A stretch of DNA of 34,681 nt, taken from NCBI GenBank assembly GCA_017940185.1, contig JAGAZE010000030.1, positions 1 through 34,681 on the forward strand. Reading direction: 5' to 3'. The position numbers and the translations under genes were made by a program. A model generated the notes under the pieces. The model was not told the DNA's origin and ran no database searches. It saw only the letters and a list, made by a program, of their open reading frames with translations. This DNA comes from Bacteroidaceae bacterium (lineage in GTDB: Bacteria; Bacteroidota; Bacteroidia; Bacteroidales; Bacteroidaceae). Positions 14,879 through 20,752 of this stretch are shown here, one piece after another; position 1 is the first letter of the stretch, and the number at the start of each line of letters is the position of its first letter.

Positions 14879-17077
14879 TTAATCGTTGTTATCTCTGTAT
14901 AGTACAAGCGCTGTTCGTGCCGGGAGGTAGAGGCGGAGGAGAGGCTGCTGCTGTGGAACGGCTGCAGGCGGAAGCTGGCCGACAGGCTGGGGATGAATGA
15001 CTGGTGTCGGCATTGGCAATGAAGCGGGGATTTCCTCTCTCGCGTGCGCTTCTCCGTCAATCTTAAAGGAGGATGCGGGGACGGGTATAGTGGTGTGTGT
15101 GAGTGTGTCGTCGTTGCGTCCTTGCCCGCCATAGTCGGCGTGGTCGGTGTCGAGGATGATGCGGTAGGTGCCTGACGGTACGTAGAGACCGTAGTCGGTG
15201 TAGGACTGTTGGGGGTGAAAGTTGAACACGAAGAGGTAGTCTCCGCGCATGAAGGCCAGCACGTGGTCGTCGTCATGGTCGCAGACGAGCTGTGGCACTG
15301 AGGAGAAGGGGGAGGGGGCGTTGCTGTGACACGGCAACATACGGGACGAGCCGCGATTGGAACGGGACGCTGGCTGACAGGATTGGTCTGTCGGCTCTTG
15401 ACGTGAGACGAGGTGGATCATGTCGCGGTCGAATCGGAGCAGGAAATGATAGCAGAGGTTGTCGTCGTCGGCCAGGTGCCACTGCCGGCGGGCGAAGTGG
15501 TGACTCCAGTTGTTGCCTTCGCGGGGGAAGTCAATCCATTCGGGATGTCCGAACTCATTGCCCATGAAGTTGAGGTAACCTCCATTGAGTGTGGTGAACG
15601 TGGCGAGACGTATCATCTTATGCAATGCCAGTGCTCGGTCTACTGCGATGGTGCGATTGTCGCGGCTGAAGTGCCAATAAAGGTCGGCATCGGCCAGACG
15701 GTGTATGAGTGTCTTGTCGCCAACGAGGGCCTGGTCGTGGCTCTCCACGTAGCTGATGGTGTGCTCTTCGGGCCGGTGGTTGGTGAGTTGGCGATAGATG
15801 TCGGCCATGTGCCACTGCTCGTCGGGCATCTCTTTCACCTGACGTATCCAGAAGTCGGGTATGTTCATGGCCATGCGGTAATTGAATCCTGCTCCTCCCT
15901 CGTCGACGGGGCTGGTGAGCATGGGCATGCCGCTTACCTCCTCGGCGATGGTGATGAACGAGTGTTGCAACTCGTGAAGGAGCTGGTTGGCCAGGGCCAG
16001 GTAGTTCCACGCATCGAGGTCGCTGTTGGCAGAGAAATAGTCGTCGTAGGAGGTGAAATCTTCTCCCAGTCCGTGGGACAGGTAGAGCATGGATGTGACG
16101 CCGTCGAAGCGGAATCCGTCGAAGCGAAACTCCTCAGCCCAGTATTTGCAGTTGCTGAGCAGGAAGTGGAGCACGGAGGGCTTGCCGTAGTCGTAGCACA
16201 GGCTGTCCCATGCGGGATGCTGTCCGCGCGGCGGCGCGTGGAAGTATTGTGTAGTGTCGCCAGCCAGCAGCCCAAGCCCTTCGTCGGTGTTCTTCACTGC
16301 GTGGGAGTGTACGATGTCCATCACAACGCGCAGCCCCATACCATGTGCGGTATCGATGAGTGCCTTAAGCTCTTCGGGTGTGCCGAAGCGGCTTGACGGC
16401 GCGAAGAGCGAACTGACGTGGTAGCCGAAGGAGCCGTAGTAGGGATGCTCCTGGATGGCCATGAGCTGCAATGTGTTGTATCCTGCCTGCACGATGCGTG
16501 GCAACACCACGTCGCGAAACTCATTGTAGGTTCCTATGCGTTCTTCTTCCTGCGCCATGCCTATATGGGCTTCGTAGATGAGCAGCGGCTCGTGGGTCGG
16601 CTGTGGCGTCGGGTGTTGCCAAATGTATGGCTCGGTGTTGTCCCACACCTGCGCTGAGAACTGCAGCGTGCCGGCATCCTGCACCACACGCCGGCACCAG
16701 GCGGGTATGCGCAGTCCCTCACCGCCACGCCACCGCACGAGCATCTTGTAGTGCTGTCCGTGGGTGAGTGCTTCGTTTGGGAGGGTGAGTTGCCATACGC
16801 CGTTGTCGTCGATGCGGGTGGCGCGGTATTTGTCGAGGGGTTGCCATTGGTTGAAGTCGCCCACGAGGAAGAGCTCGGTGGCATTGGGTGCCCACTCGCG
16901 GAAGGTCCACCCCTCCGCCGTGTGTTGCAAGCCGAAGTAGCGGTGACCATTGGCAAAATCTGACAGCGACATGGTGTCGGCGGCAGTCAGTCGGCGGCGA
17001 CAGTGCTCCACGCTGTCGTAGCGCTGCTGCAGATATGAGCGATAAGGCTCCAGCCAAGGGTCGGGGAGGGTAAGCAT
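14879..17077 (-). CDS. glgB: 1,4-alpha-glucan branching enzyme (GH13), with two unusual insertions
   Basis: Branching enzyme cuts an alpha-1,4 chain and rejoins it as an alpha-1,6 branch in glycogen. The 732-residue protein has an N-terminal CBM48-like domain (TFREWAPNATELFLVGDFNQ, about 58-77), then the GH13 barrel with nucleophile Asp325 in GFRFDGVTSM, acid Glu379 in AEEVSGMP, and Asp448 in ESHDQALVGDK, then the C-terminal beta domain. It resembles the eukaryote-like GlgB type of Bacteroidetes. Two stretches look foreign to the family: residues about 558-597 (SRQEPTDQSCQPASRSNRGS...) and about 672-713 (proline/glutamine-rich, AAVPQQQPLL). Without them the conserved text reads through, and both are encoded by related repeat DNA (15311-15395, 14938-15011). 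They lie in or beside the C-terminal domain and leave the catalytic residues intact. No other glycogen genes are nearby. Confidence 0.9.
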   Translation of the reverse strand: MLTLPDPWLEPYRSYLQQRYDSVEHCRRRLTAADTMSLSDFANGHRYFGLQHTAEGWTFREWAPNATELFLVGDFNQWQPLDKYRATRIDDNGVWQLTLPNEALTHGQHYKMLVRWRGGEGLRIPAWCRRVVQDAGTLQFSAQVWDNTEPYIWQHPTPQPTHEPLLIYEAHIGMAQEEERIGTYNEFRDVVLPRIVQAGYNTLQLMAIQEHPYYGSFGYHVSSLFAPSSRFGTPEELKALIDTAHGMGLRVVMDIVHSHAVKNTDEGLGLLAGDTTQYFHAPPRGQHPAWDSLCYDYGKPSVLHFLLSNCKYWAEEFRFDGFRFDGVTSMLYLSHGLGEDFTSYDDYFSANSDLDAWNYLALANQLLHELQHSFITIAEEVSGMPMLTSPVDEGGAGFNYRMAMNIPDFWIRQVKEMPDEQWHMADIYRQLTNHRPEEHTISYVESHDQALVGDKTLIHRLADADLYWHFSRDNRTIAVDRALALHKMIRLATFTTLNGGYLNFMGNEFGHPEWIDFPREGNNWSHHFARRQWHLADDDNLCYHFLLRFDRDMIHLVSRQEPTDQSCQPASRSNRGSSRMLPCHSNAPSPFSSVPQLVCDHDDDHVLAFMRGDYLFVFNFHPQQSYTDYGLYVPSGTYRIILDTDHADYGGQGRNDDTLTHTTIPVPASSFKIDGEAHAREEIPASLPMPTPVIHPQPVGQLPPAAVPQQQPLLRLYLPARTALVLYRDNND
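14938..15011. repeat. short dispersed repeat, copy C, inside glgB
   Basis: Shares TGCTGTGGAACGGC with the copy at 19158-19195 and GCTGGC(T/C)GACAGG with the copy at 15311-15395. It ends in a gccgaca / tgtcggc inverted pair (14978-14984, 15005-15011). It encodes the AAVPQQQPL part of the second GlgB insertion. Confidence 0.55.
15311..15395. repeat. short dispersed repeat, copy A, inside glgB
   Basis: The 38-base core (15311-15348) matches the intergenic copy B at 19158-19195 at 31 of 38 positions, with shared blocks GTTGCTGTG and ACATACGG. It is followed by a stem, gctgacag - 7 bases - ctgtcggc (15373-15395), resembling the end of copy C. It encodes most of the first GlgB insertion. Confidence 0.6.
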
Positions 17078-17141: not shown

Positions 17142-18275
17142 CTATTCTTCTACTCTGCGACCGTTGACGTAGCGTCCGCGGGCTATTATCTGTCCGTTGC
17201 GGTCTTTCTCCACAAACTCGCCGTCGCGTTCGCCGTCGTTGTATGTGCCTTCGAAGCGGCGGCCGTCTTTGTCTACTTCTATGACCTTGCCATGCCGCTC
17301 TCCGTTTACGTATGTGCCGCGAAACTTGGCTCCGTCGTGGTAATGTATGATGACTTCGCCCTCTATGGCTCCGTTTTTGAAGTTGCCGTCGAAGATATCG
17401 CCATTGCGCTTTACGAGCCGTCCTTTGCCATGCTGTTTGTCGGCTTTCCACAGTCCTTCATAGCGGTCGCCGTTGCTCCACACGAAGGTGCCCTGTCCTT
17501 CCATGAGTCCTTCGTGAAACTGTCCGGTATAGCGGTCGCCGTTGAAGTATTTGAATATGCCTACGCCTTCACGCTCTCCCTGTCGGTAGTCGCCCTCGTA
17601 GACGTCGCCGTTCTTAAAGCGGTAGATTCCCTTGCCGTCCTGCTCATCGTTTTTCCAGTCGCCGTGATAGCTTTCGCCGTTGGCATACTTGTATTCGCCT
17701 TTTCCGTGGCATTTGTTTTCTTTCCATTGTCCGGTGTACTCCGTGCCGTCGCCCCAGTTGAAGGTACCTTTTCCGTCTTTCATGTCGTTGCGCCACTGTC
17801 CTACGTAGAAGGCACCGCTGCTGTAAGTGTACTTGCCCTCGCCGGAGCGCTTGTCCTGCTGCCAGTTGCCATCGTAGATGTCGCCGTTGTAGTAGTACAT
17901 CACGCCGTGTCCCTGCTGGTAGTCCTTATACCACAGTCCGTCGTAGCGGTTGTCGTTCTGGAAGTAGAAGATGCCGCGGCCGTGCTGTTTGTTCTGCACC
18001 CAGTCGCCCTCATAGCGTTCGCCGTCGGAGAACGAGTAGACACCGTGTCCCTGGCGCTTGCCCTTCACAAATTCGCCCTCGTAGGTGTCGCCGTTGTCGA
18101 AGGTGACGCGGCCTTTGCCATGGGGTCGGCCAGCCACTATCTCACCCTTGTATTGCCCCATGCGTTCGCCCTCCTTGACGGTGAGCGAACCTATGGTGAC
18201 ACGCTGTGCCAAGGCTGTGAGACTGAGGGTGAAAAGAAGGGCGGATATGAGTAGGATTCTGCGTTGTATCATCAT
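17142..18275 (-). CDS. exported MORN-repeat protein
   Basis: Starting at 18275 (MMIQRRILLISALLFTLSLTALA|Q) gives 377 residues with a signal peptide. From about residue 42 to the end the protein is built from 14 consecutive 23-residue MORN repeats plus a partial last one, for example YEGEFVKGKRQGHGVYSFSD and YEGDWVQNKQHGRGIFYFQN, with the YxGxxxxxxxxGxGxxxxxxG core. The last three units are more divergent and charged. MORN repeats form an extended beta sheet that can bind lipids or proteins; in bacteria the role is usually unknown. It has an exact consensus promoter and leads an apparent operon with glgB (64 bases on) and the LRR gene. A functional link between an exported MORN protein and cytoplasmic GlgB is not obvious. 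Confidence 0.9.
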   Translation of the reverse strand: MMIQRRILLISALLFTLSLTALAQRVTIGSLTVKEGERMGQYKGEIVAGRPHGKGRVTFDNGDTYEGEFVKGKRQGHGVYSFSDGERYEGDWVQNKQHGRGIFYFQNDNRYDGLWYKDYQQGHGVMYYYNGDIYDGNWQQDKRSGEGKYTYSSGAFYVGQWRNDMKDGKGTFNWGDGTEYTGQWKENKCHGKGEYKYANGESYHGDWKNDEQDGKGIYRFKNGDVYEGDYRQGEREGVGIFKYFNGDRYTGQFHEGLMEGQGTFVWSNGDRYEGLWKADKQHGKGRLVKRNGDIFDGNFKNGAIEGEVIIHYHDGAKFRGTYVNGERHGKVIEVDKDGRRFEGTYNDGERDGEFVEKDRNGQIIARGRYVNGRRVEE

Positions 18276-18375: not shown

Positions 18376-19131
18376 CTAGTGTCTGATTGTCTGTCGCCTT
18401 GCTATTTGCCGTTCGGCTTCCTGCAGGCGTTCGGGTGTTCCCACATCGATAAGCGTGTCGGCCGGTGTGTCTACCGCCACATAGGAGTGTTGCCGACAGG
18501 TGTCGATGTAGAAGTCGGTGATGCCGAAGCGCTCGGGCCATGCTTGCAGCAGGGGGTAGACCTTGGGGAAGAGCATATGTATGCCCGAGAAGGCACGTGG
18601 CAGCAGGCCGTCAACAGGGAGTCCTTCCGGTCGCACGGCTCCCGTGGAGGTGTTGGTCCATCCCTGCATGCGCTGATGGCTGTCAAAGAGCAGGTAGCGC
18701 GACGAGGTGCGGTGGCTCACCATGAGTGCTGCCTCGCACGACGTTGCCTCATGCCGGCTGCGGGCTGCCGCTACAAACTGTAGCAGCGAGCTGGTGCTGA
18801 CGATGTCGACGTTGTGGAGCAGCAGCGGCTGTGTGGTATCGATGAGGTCGAGTGCCTTTCTCACCCCCCCCCCAGTGTCGAGCAGCAAGTCGCGCTCATC
18901 GCTGACGAGCAACTCAACCCCTGCACGTTGCCACTGCGACAGATGCCGGCAGAGCATATCGGCGAAGTGGTGCACATTGACTACGATGCGCGTAGCACCG
19001 GCATCGACAAGCTTGTCGAGCACGTGATCGATGAGCGGGCGTCCTGCAAGGGGTACGAGAGCCTTGGGACAATGATTGGTGAGGGGTTGCAGGCGAGTAC
19101 CGAGGCCCGCTGCGAATATCATGGCTTGCAT
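18376..19131 (-). CDS. sugar-1-phosphate nucleotidyltransferase (MurU-like)
   Basis: The protein starts MQAMIFAAGLGTRLQPLTNH at 19131 and has 251 residues; an upstream in-frame ATG at 19194 lies inside a repeat and would add 21 unlikely residues. AAGLGTRL...PKALVPLAGRP is the nucleotide-binding and lysine signature, and LLLDTGGGVRKAL (83-95) and LLLHNVDIVS (about 103-112) are the sugar- and metal-site motifs of NTP_transferase enzymes. Closest in style are MurNAc-1-phosphate uridylyltransferases of the cell-wall recycling route (MurU), but the substrate is not proven and the usual kinase partner is not adjacent. The three GGG codons of TGGGV make a run of ten G (18864-18873). It lies 70 bases after dnaB. 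Confidence 0.8.
   Translation of the reverse strand: MQAMIFAAGLGTRLQPLTNHCPKALVPLAGRPLIDHVLDKLVDAGATRIVVNVHHFADMLCRHLSQWQRAGVELLVSDERDLLLDTGGGVRKALDLIDTTQPLLLHNVDIVSTSSLLQFVAAARSRHEATSCEAALMVSHRTSSRYLLFDSHQRMQGWTNTSTGAVRPEGLPVDGLLPRAFSGIHMLFPKVYPLLQAWPERFGITDFYIDTCRQHSYVAVDTPADTLIDVGTPERLQEAERQIARRQTIRH
18864..18873 (-). repeat. G10 homopolymer tract inside the nucleotidyltransferase gene
   Basis: Ten consecutive C on the plus strand, i.e. GGG GGG GGG G in the coding sense, spelling Gly87-Gly88-Gly89 and the first base of Val90. Gain or loss of one base would frameshift the gene after one third of its length. Confidence 0.9.
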
Positions 19132-19157
19132 GGTGAGTGCGAGGAGGGAGTGTTTGC

Positions 19158-19195
19158 GGAGGGATTGTTGCTGTGGAACGGCCACATACGGCACG
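19158..19195. repeat. short dispersed repeat, copy B, between dnaB and the nucleotidyltransferase gene
   Basis: Core of 38 bases matching copy A in glgB at 31 positions, and matching copy C over TGCTGTGGAACGGC. It starts 7 bases after the dnaB stop codon, and the frame across it is open on the coding strand (PYVAVPQQQSL). Confidence 0.55.
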
Positions 19196-19201
19196 GAGGA
19201 A

Positions 19202-20752
19202 TTAGAAGGGAGTGTCGGGTGGTGGAACGTCGTCAGGGCCGAATTGCGCGTTGATGTCGTCGTCGGCTTCGATGCTGGTGTTTACTTTCGATGCCACTAC
19301 CGCCCCTTGCGGTGGTGTGGGGAAGGAGGGCATGCCGTAGTCGCCAAGGTTGGAGAAGCGTGTGTAGCGCCCTTCGAAACGCAGCCACACGTCGCCCTGT
19401 GCGCCTTTACGGTGCTTGGCGATGATAATTTTGGCCTTACCCACCAGGCTGTTGCCGTTTTGGTCTTTGAATATCTTGTACACTTCGGGGCGATGCACGA
19501 AAATCACCATGTCGGCATCCTGCTCTATGGCACCCGACTCACGGAGGTCGCTGAGTTTCGGTTCCTTGGCTTCGCTGTTCTCGTCGCCCTCGCTGATACG
19601 GTTGTCTACACCACGGTTGAGCTGCGAGAGTGCTATCACCGGGATGTCGAGTTCCTTGGCCAGTCCCTTGAGCTGTCGGCTGATGGTGGCCACCTCTTCC
19701 TGTCGGCTGCCGTAGTTGTTGGTGCGTGCAGTCATGAGCTGCAGATAGTCGATGATGATGAGTTTCACGCCTTTGTCTTGCACCAGACGTCGCGCCTTGG
19801 ACCGCAATTCAAAGATACGCAGCGATGGGGTCTCGTCGATGTATATCGGTGCTGTGCCGAGTGTGTCGCGGTATTTGTCGAGTCGGGCAAACTCCGCTCC
19901 GTCGAGCTGTCCGCTGAGTATCTTTTCACCATCTATGGAGCATACGTTGGAAATGAGTCGGTTGACGAGTTGCACGTTGGTCATCTCGAGTGAGAATACC
20001 GCCACGGGCATCTGATGGTCGACGGCGGCATTCTTTGCCAGTGAGAGCGCAAATGTGGTCTTACCCATGGCAGGACGCCCAGCCACAATCACCAGGTCGC
20101 TCTTCTGCCATCCCGAAGTAAGTTTGTCGAGTTTGGGATAGCCTGTAGGCACTCCCGTCATACCTCCCTCGGTGCCCTTCAGCTCCTGTATGATGTTGAT
20201 GGCCTGGTCGAGCACGGGAGCTATGTGCATGAAGTCTTGCCGTTGGTTTTTCTTCGACAGTTCGAAGAGCGATGTCTCAGTCTCTTGCATCAGGTCGTCG
20301 ACATCGACGCTCTCGTCGAAAGCCTTTGTCTCTACTTGTCCGGCAAAGCTTATGAGCTGCCGCGCCAACCACTTCTGAGTCAGTATGCGTGCGTGGTACT
20401 CTATATGTGCCGACGAGGTGACGTGCGAACTGAGCTCCACAAGGTAGGCATTGCCGCCCACATCGTTGAATGTGGCATCGCGCTTGAGCTGTTCGCCCAC
20501 GGTGGCAATGTCGATGGGGTGCTGTTGCAGGGAGAGGGTTTGTATGGCTTGGTAGATTTTCTGATGTCGTGGTTCGTAGAATGTCTCAGGTGTGAGCATC
20601 TCGCCTACGAGCGTGAAGGCTTCTACATCGATGAGCAGAGCGCCCAGCACATCGCGTTCCACCTCTATGGCCTGCGGGGGCAGATGGCCGTAGGTGTTGT
20701 CGATGGGTTGCTGGGACGATTTGCGTCTGTTGCTATTGTTGTTGGTTGGCAT
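19202..20752 (-). CDS. dnaB: replicative DNA helicase
   Basis: DnaB is the ring helicase that unwinds the chromosome at the fork and recruits primase. The 516-residue protein has a low-complexity start (MPTNNNSNRRKSSQQP), the N-terminal helical domain (about 22-125), a linker, and the RecA-like domain with Walker A GRPAMGKT (225-232) and Walker B LIIIDYLQLM (331-340). DnaB motifs FSLEM, LSQLNRGV and LRESGAIEQDADMV follow. No intein interrupts it. The C-terminal tail is acidic and proline-rich (FGPDDVPPPDTPF). It follows fcl by 43 bases and has no clear promoter of its own, so it may be transcribed from the fcl promoter. Confidence 0.96.
   Translation of the reverse strand: MPTNNNSNRRKSSQQPIDNTYGHLPPQAIEVERDVLGALLIDVEAFTLVGEMLTPETFYEPRHQKIYQAIQTLSLQQHPIDIATVGEQLKRDATFNDVGGNAYLVELSSHVTSSAHIEYHARILTQKWLARQLISFAGQVETKAFDESVDVDDLMQETETSLFELSKKNQRQDFMHIAPVLDQAINIIQELKGTEGGMTGVPTGYPKLDKLTSGWQKSDLVIVAGRPAMGKTTFALSLAKNAAVDHQMPVAVFSLEMTNVQLVNRLISNVCSIDGEKILSGQLDGAEFARLDKYRDTLGTAPIYIDETPSLRIFELRSKARRLVQDKGVKLIIIDYLQLMTARTNNYGSRQEEVATISRQLKGLAKELDIPVIALSQLNRGVDNRISEGDENSEAKEPKLSDLRESGAIEQDADMVIFVHRPEVYKIFKDQNGNSLVGKAKIIIAKHRKGAQGDVWLRFEGRYTRFSNLGDYGMPSFPTPPQGAVVASKVNTSIEADDDINAQFGPDDVPPPDTPF

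Follow-up and report, generated by a model that had tools for sequence, protein, structure and literature searches.

What is the short sequence that interrupts glgB, the gene for the glycogen branching enzyme, and that recurs after dnaB in the same window (here the whole stretch of DNA that was analysed, 34 681 nucleotides)? The initial annotation proposed a repeat inserted in frame twice within glgB, with a third copy after dnaB. The features to which we refer, all of them on the minus strand, are as follows.

14879-17077, minus strand: glgB, glycogen branching enzyme, 732 residues, host of the insertion (Pfam CBM_48, Alpha-amylase and Alpha-amylase_C; alignment with 29 relatives; solved branching enzymes)
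15314-15394, minus strand: in-frame 81 bp insertion, residues 562-588, just before the C-terminal β-domain of GlgB (alignment with relatives; ends uncertain by a few bases)
15320-15338, minus strand: hairpin of repeat copy 1, 8 bp stem and 3 nt loop (47.6 bits with covariance model R1 for 15315-15355; covariation over 141 distinct rows)
15339-15348, minus strand: foot of copy 1, located 5′ of the hairpin and reading CGTCCCGTAT on the coding strand (seen as the conserved tail of alignment A2)
15376-15392, minus strand: second small hairpin inside the glgB insertion (fold of 15310-15400; no convincing other copy in the genome)
14947-14966, minus strand: possible decayed repeat copy near the 3′ end of glgB, in a variable region (13.9 bits, E = 0.034 in the window)
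19167-19185, minus strand: hairpin of repeat copy 2, between dnaB and a nucleotidyltransferase-like gene (47.1 bits with R1 for 19162-19202)
19186-19195, minus strand: foot of copy 2, CGTGCCGTAT on the coding strand (sequence and alignment)
19202-20752, minus strand: dnaB, upstream of copy 2 (ORF list and gene call; named by eye)
18376-19194, minus strand: sugar nucleotidyltransferase-like ORF, downstream of copy 2 (ORF list and gene call; named by eye)

The glgB insertion and its empty site

The window contains two good copies of the repeat, one in glgB (15320-15348) and one after dnaB (19167-19195), and the identity of 31 of 38 bases that had been claimed between 15311-15348 and 19158-19195 was confirmed. 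These are the first and third of the three proposed copies, scoring about 47 bits each; the second, also in glgB, is weak, and its core is only a possible decayed copy of the repeat. As had been stated, the copies are read in two frames: the weak glgB copy shares its frame with the open frame that covers the third copy, and the first glgB copy uses the other. The true start of the nucleotidyltransferase-like ORF may be the ATG at 19131, which would leave copy 2 in the leader. Taken singly, the window copies have unremarkable folding energies (8 to 71 of 200 shuffles fold equally well, for 39 nt pieces), and an Rfam scan of the window at gathering thresholds gave no match. Two further observations concern the neighbouring genes: about ten consecutive C at 18864-18873, read as G on the coding strand, form by eye a possible slippage site in the GGG motif of the nucleotidyltransferase-like ORF, and a gene for a MORN-like protein (named by eye) contains a series of 69 bp repeats at 17421-18114.

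The 27 residues 562-588 of GlgB are absent from all 29 relatives of the genus that were aligned (out of 53 other genomes with a GlgB match), including the sister genome G005, whose GlgB is the nearest (80% identity over residues 1-558). The insertion precedes the C-terminal domain (Pfam, residues 599-661), stays unaligned when GlgB is compared with the solved branching enzyme that matches best, and contains copy 1 together with the second small hairpin. In the DNA alignment with G005 the gap falls in several pieces, so that the exact junctions of the insertion are uncertain. The block GCTGGC(T/C)GACAGG, which had been counted as part of the related DNA of the two glgB stretches, does adjoin both glgB copies, but a BLAST search of 15290-15410 against the genome of origin gave no convincing further copy of this part and it is therefore not counted in the dispersed repeat. 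Both stretches had been said to break the conserved text of the branching enzyme. This holds without exception among the aligned relatives for the first; the second (about residues 672-713) is an expansion, which is missing from 27 of the 28 relatives that reach this position, while G005 has an expansion of different sequence at the same place and one relative (L113) ends earlier. No shared copy was found at the loci compared with G005, which cover part of its copies. For the first copy the analysis supports a dispersed palindromic element that is inserted in frame in glgB and has an empty site in the sister genome; for the second it does not establish one.

Hairpin conservation and dispersal of the repeat

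On the coding strand the repeat has the consensus [CT]GTnC[CAT]GTAT-GTTGCTGT-nnn-ACAGCAAC, in which a conserved foot lies 5′ of a hairpin with an 8 bp stem and a 3 nt loop. The covariance model R1 was trained on 14 copies from the genome of origin, both good window copies among these. The foot shows as a conserved tail in alignment A2, and in 94 asymmetric copies, picked for a good foot and for closeness to the consensus, it reads GTAT in 71, GTCT in 11 and GTTT in 10; the letters CGTC are confined to a part of the feet. There are also dyads, which have a foot on either side. Tandem copies at spacings of 36-39 and 66 bp were seen at four loci (L064, L069, L072 and L081), as were short tandem pieces consisting of a foot and half a stem.

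The same 94 copies contain 39 combinations of arms, which are exactly complementary in 72 copies and form Watson–Crick pairs at 723 of 752 positions. In alignment A3, comprising the 150 best of 179 matches (141 distinct rows, with dyads able to enter on both strands), 98.6% of the stem cells pair and 122 cells show a compensatory double change, compared with a mean of 17.7 after shuffling and with none of 500 shuffles reaching 122, although A3 was fitted to R1 and thus leans towards structure. The 14 copies of the genome of origin, taken alone, give a modest covariation signal, the score being reached in 13 of 500 shuffles. Overall, the signal that the hairpin is maintained through compensatory change is strong. 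The 8-3-8 symmetry and the positions in gene gaps would also suit an operator, a two-fold symmetric binding site for a transcription factor; however, the letters of the stem covary in matched pairs across the two arms, copies lie in frame within unrelated enzymes and inside genes of REP-associated tyrosine transposases (RAYTs; see below), and one tandem array carries six copies at 66 bp spacing, all of which make an operator highly improbable.

The repeat is dispersed both in the genome of origin and among its relatives. At home, the core pattern with up to three mismatches occurs at 15 places and the reversed control at none, and R1 gives 21 matches at E = 0.05, or 17 at E = 0.001 with stricter filters. 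Within the genus, 32 of 60 genomes (the genome of origin included) have R1 matches at E = 0.05, of which 22 have at least three and ten have one or two, some of these near the chance level; the richest, G067, has 38 matches in 4.1 Mb. The recurrence of the core that the initial annotation supposed is thereby borne out. In a sample of the family, searched at E = 0.001 with stricter filters and few candidates per genome, matches were found in 15 of 201 genomes and six of 30 genera. Stems are perfect in five of 16 copies from the genome of origin; the corresponding figures are 69 of 78 for ten sampled genomes that have close RAYTs and 15 of 21 for other genomes, a contrast that is inflated by the fuller sampling of the home copies and by the training of R1 on them.

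The repeat in and beside RAYT genes

In relatives, copies of the repeat lie inside a gene family encoding proteins of about 340-355 residues. Five of these element-bearing proteins match NCBIfam REP_Tyr_transpos with E values of 1e-9 to 3e-8 and scores of 34-38 bits, below the curated cut-off of 80. The repeat keeps the reading frame and lies between two motifs of the RAYT, HuH and Tyr, which read DH[LF]H and YLxDNP in the repeat-bearing members inspected. The paralogs L140-L142 lack it, and no repeat was found within about 2-3 kb of these three or of L157.

A search with an alignment of the five proteins, which had been chosen for carrying the repeat, located RAYT relatives in 32 of the 60 genomes, 24 with the repeat and eight without. 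RAYT matches are thus present in 24 of 32 repeat-bearing genomes and in eight of the 28 others (Fisher p = 6e-4); the figures are 19 of 27 and eight of 28 with the five seeds removed (p = 0.003), and p = 0.009 if at least three repeat matches are also required. Eight of the 32 repeat-bearing genomes have no RAYT match. The 12 closest loci (E up to 1e-140, a cut set after inspection of the list) are all in repeat-bearing genomes, and the next, in G046 at 2e-138, has no repeat match. R1 matches within the gene at ten of these 12, about 50 bases beside it at one and not at all at L251; the repeat is accordingly in or beside the gene at 11 of 12 loci, or at six of seven when the five search seeds are left out. 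The other 18 RAYT loci gave three weak R1 matches (E = 0.014-0.031) and 15 none. In a quick tree, from which L250 was left out, ten repeat-bearing RAYTs form a group (SH-aLRT 87) that also takes in G046, a long-branch row with no repeat. The genome of origin (89% complete) has no RAYT match at E = 1e-10, and G005 keeps a RAYT fragment of about 64 residues.

An IS200-type partner was considered and rejected. The genome of origin has no match to the Y1 family, which is present in 34 of the 60 genus genomes, and 30 Y1-family loci gave a single repeat match (E = 0.5). The Y1 family also misses the repeat-bearing RAYTs, three of the five having no Pfam match and two having weak Y1 matches. Most of the RAYTs inspected from other subclades (L251-L266) have a perfect hairpin of another kind at this site between the motifs, some with long repeat expansions. 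The notion that a stem embedded in a RAYT is also the dispersed stem failed for CTGAGGC, which occurs in four of the 60 genomes at one place each (inside the RAYT itself in G007 and G045). It was likewise not borne out for GTTGCGAC, present in 11 of the 60 genomes; there are seven places in G030, and the two genomes with a listed RAYT that has this stem show it at one place each, the RAYT itself.

These two further stem types, not dispersed in their genomes, and the 21 repeat matches in the genome of origin despite its lack of a RAYT match would suit a palindromic element, Rickettsia-like or MITE-like, that has some other mover, with RAYT genes just tolerating insertions in the loop between their motifs. 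Set against this is the presence of the repeat at six of the seven closest RAYT loci outside the five seeds, when even G067 has only its 38 matches in 4.1 Mb, and we consider another mover unlikely. The repeat is most probably a REP-type mobile palindrome, a non-autonomous hairpin of DNA whose 5′ foot is GTAT or a variant of it, and which is, or formerly was, spread by one RAYT clade of the genus. The REPs of RAYTs are the nearest known kind because the same element lies inside and beside RAYT genes in relatives, and we place it as a variant of that class since it works like known REPs yet departs from the GT[AG]G foot.

We infer a mechanism in which the candidate RAYT, with its tyrosine and HuH motifs, would recognise the foot and hairpin on single-stranded DNA, cut there and then pass the copy to another exposed single strand. 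The surviving copies would be those in gene gaps, loops, linkers or signal peptides in which the frame is kept, and the genome of origin would have lost its RAYT, leaving its copies to decay. The non-autonomous derivatives of IS200/IS605 elements share this HuH single-strand logic.

Coding-strand orientation and known systems

Orientation was analysed with gene calls from a codon-usage script trained on the window genes. The 115 asymmetric copies form 99 clusters, of which 11 convergent, six divergent and two edge clusters were set aside and 80, either intragenic or in tandem gaps, were kept. The foot-first strand is the coding strand in 62 of these 80 clusters, compared with 279 of 521 genes located 4-10 kb away (p = 1.6e-5), related sites in different genomes being unmerged in these counts and their independence therefore imperfect. 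Stricter gene filters gave 54 of 67 clusters on the coding strand, and dyad copies, the orientation of which is ambiguous, are co-oriented in 20 of 32 cases. Two other causes were discarded. Against replication-strand bias stand the genes 4-10 kb away, co-oriented in 279 of 521 cases, and the dyad copies. With respect to stop codons, an open frame is found in 307 of 345 cases in the sense direction and in 246 of 345 in the antisense direction, and the strictly called intragenic clusters are sense in 27 of 34, above the expectation from stop codons (p = 0.005).

In tandem gene gaps 30 clusters are sense and 11 antisense, and for 23 of the 30 sense clusters the called start of the next gene is at most 60 nt away or slightly overlapped. 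This would suit a regulatory hairpin in mRNA leaders, sitting between co-directional genes before start codons and affecting translation or stability. Many copies, however, are within reading frames (32 sense and seven antisense asymmetric clusters), and of the two strands of the glgB copy the coding strand gives the poorer fold (-3.6 versus -5.7 kcal/mol as DNA; for copy 2 the fold covers the coding strand). Wobble pairs also lean to the other strand, although not significantly (17 versus eight, p = 0.11). A leader hairpin is accordingly quite improbable, and we retain the REP reading.

Besides GlgB, ThrC, TrpC and one MnmE carry intragenic copies (Pfam), those of TrpC and ThrC appearing as gaps against the best solved relatives. 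At six loci (L181, L196, L215, L237, L180 and L195) copies lie near residues 8-22 of N-termini that by eye resemble lipoprotein or secretion signal peptides, in a cysteine-rich frame. The excess on the coding strand could arise from insertion or from later selection. It is conceivable, and we suggest it only tentatively, that RAYT-mobilised REPs of this genus favour insertion in the orientation that makes the recognised strand the coding (non-template) one; DNA opened by transcription, as well as by replication, would then serve the mover, and proteins would repeatedly gain in-frame insertions from REPs. We found no report of a coding-strand bias of REPs and no description of REPs in Prevotella in the open-licence literature. 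The bias is a clue, open to test, to the way in which REPs reach their targets, the four enzymes are worked examples of short mobile hairpins reshaping proteins in frame, and the repeat adds a REP family with an unusual foot, tied to its likely mover in relatives.

Several described systems invite comparison. PINSR of Prevotella intermedia and its kin, from the genus that the initial annotation named, is likewise a dispersed repeat, with about 180 copies, but is 188 bp long and intergenic, with no terminal inverted repeats reported in the excerpted account, and is set apart here by description (PMC4755523). Among candidate RNAs of the human microbiome, 20 are palindromic and, according to their authors, possibly REPs or another class; some are from Bacteroidetes and, as far as the excerpt describes them, may overlap with the repeat, whereas one palindromic candidate, described without a predicted terminator and compared by its description, measures 109 bp (PMC8040213).

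The palindromic elements of Rickettsia, to which the repeat had initially been likened, are a fair analogy, represented by the repeats of R. conorii, in which CGTC repeats correspond, according to Di Nocera et al. (PMC3733652), to RPE-6 and RPE-4; the nearest kind, however, is the RAYT-linked REP. As portrayed in the excerpt, CGTC-tagged REPs are also dispersed palindromes with stems of 8-9 bp and in-frame intragenic copies, and are mentioned in Bacteroidetes, but they have loops of 4-5 nt, a CGTC tag at one end and no transposase link, in contrast to the 3 nt loop and RAYT link found here (PMC3733652). The group 3 REPs of Stenotrophomonas maltophilia (REPtron Sm) have, as here, a perfect 8 bp stem with a 3 nt loop, and the loop letters, which matter in REPtron Sm, are conserved in the present repeat; these REPs differ, in the excerpted description, by a GTAG foot and by belonging to another RAYT group (PMC8266576).

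The REPs of TnpA_REP subclass 2.4 (RAYT group 4), a subclass abundant in Bacteroidetes, are in the excerpted survey short hairpin repeats with a 5′ foot, known 'double foot' forms and in-frame copies inside the RAYT gene, generally between HuH and Tyr, all of which recur here (PMC6006769). The present family is distinguished by a foot of GTAT, GTTT or GTCT in place of the GT[AG]G of canonical and subclass 2.4 REPs, by the additional upstream box [CT]GTnC, and by a RAYT clade with DH[LF]H and YLxDNP where NH[IFV]H and YIxNNP are tabulated for the subclass in the same excerpt (PMC6006769).
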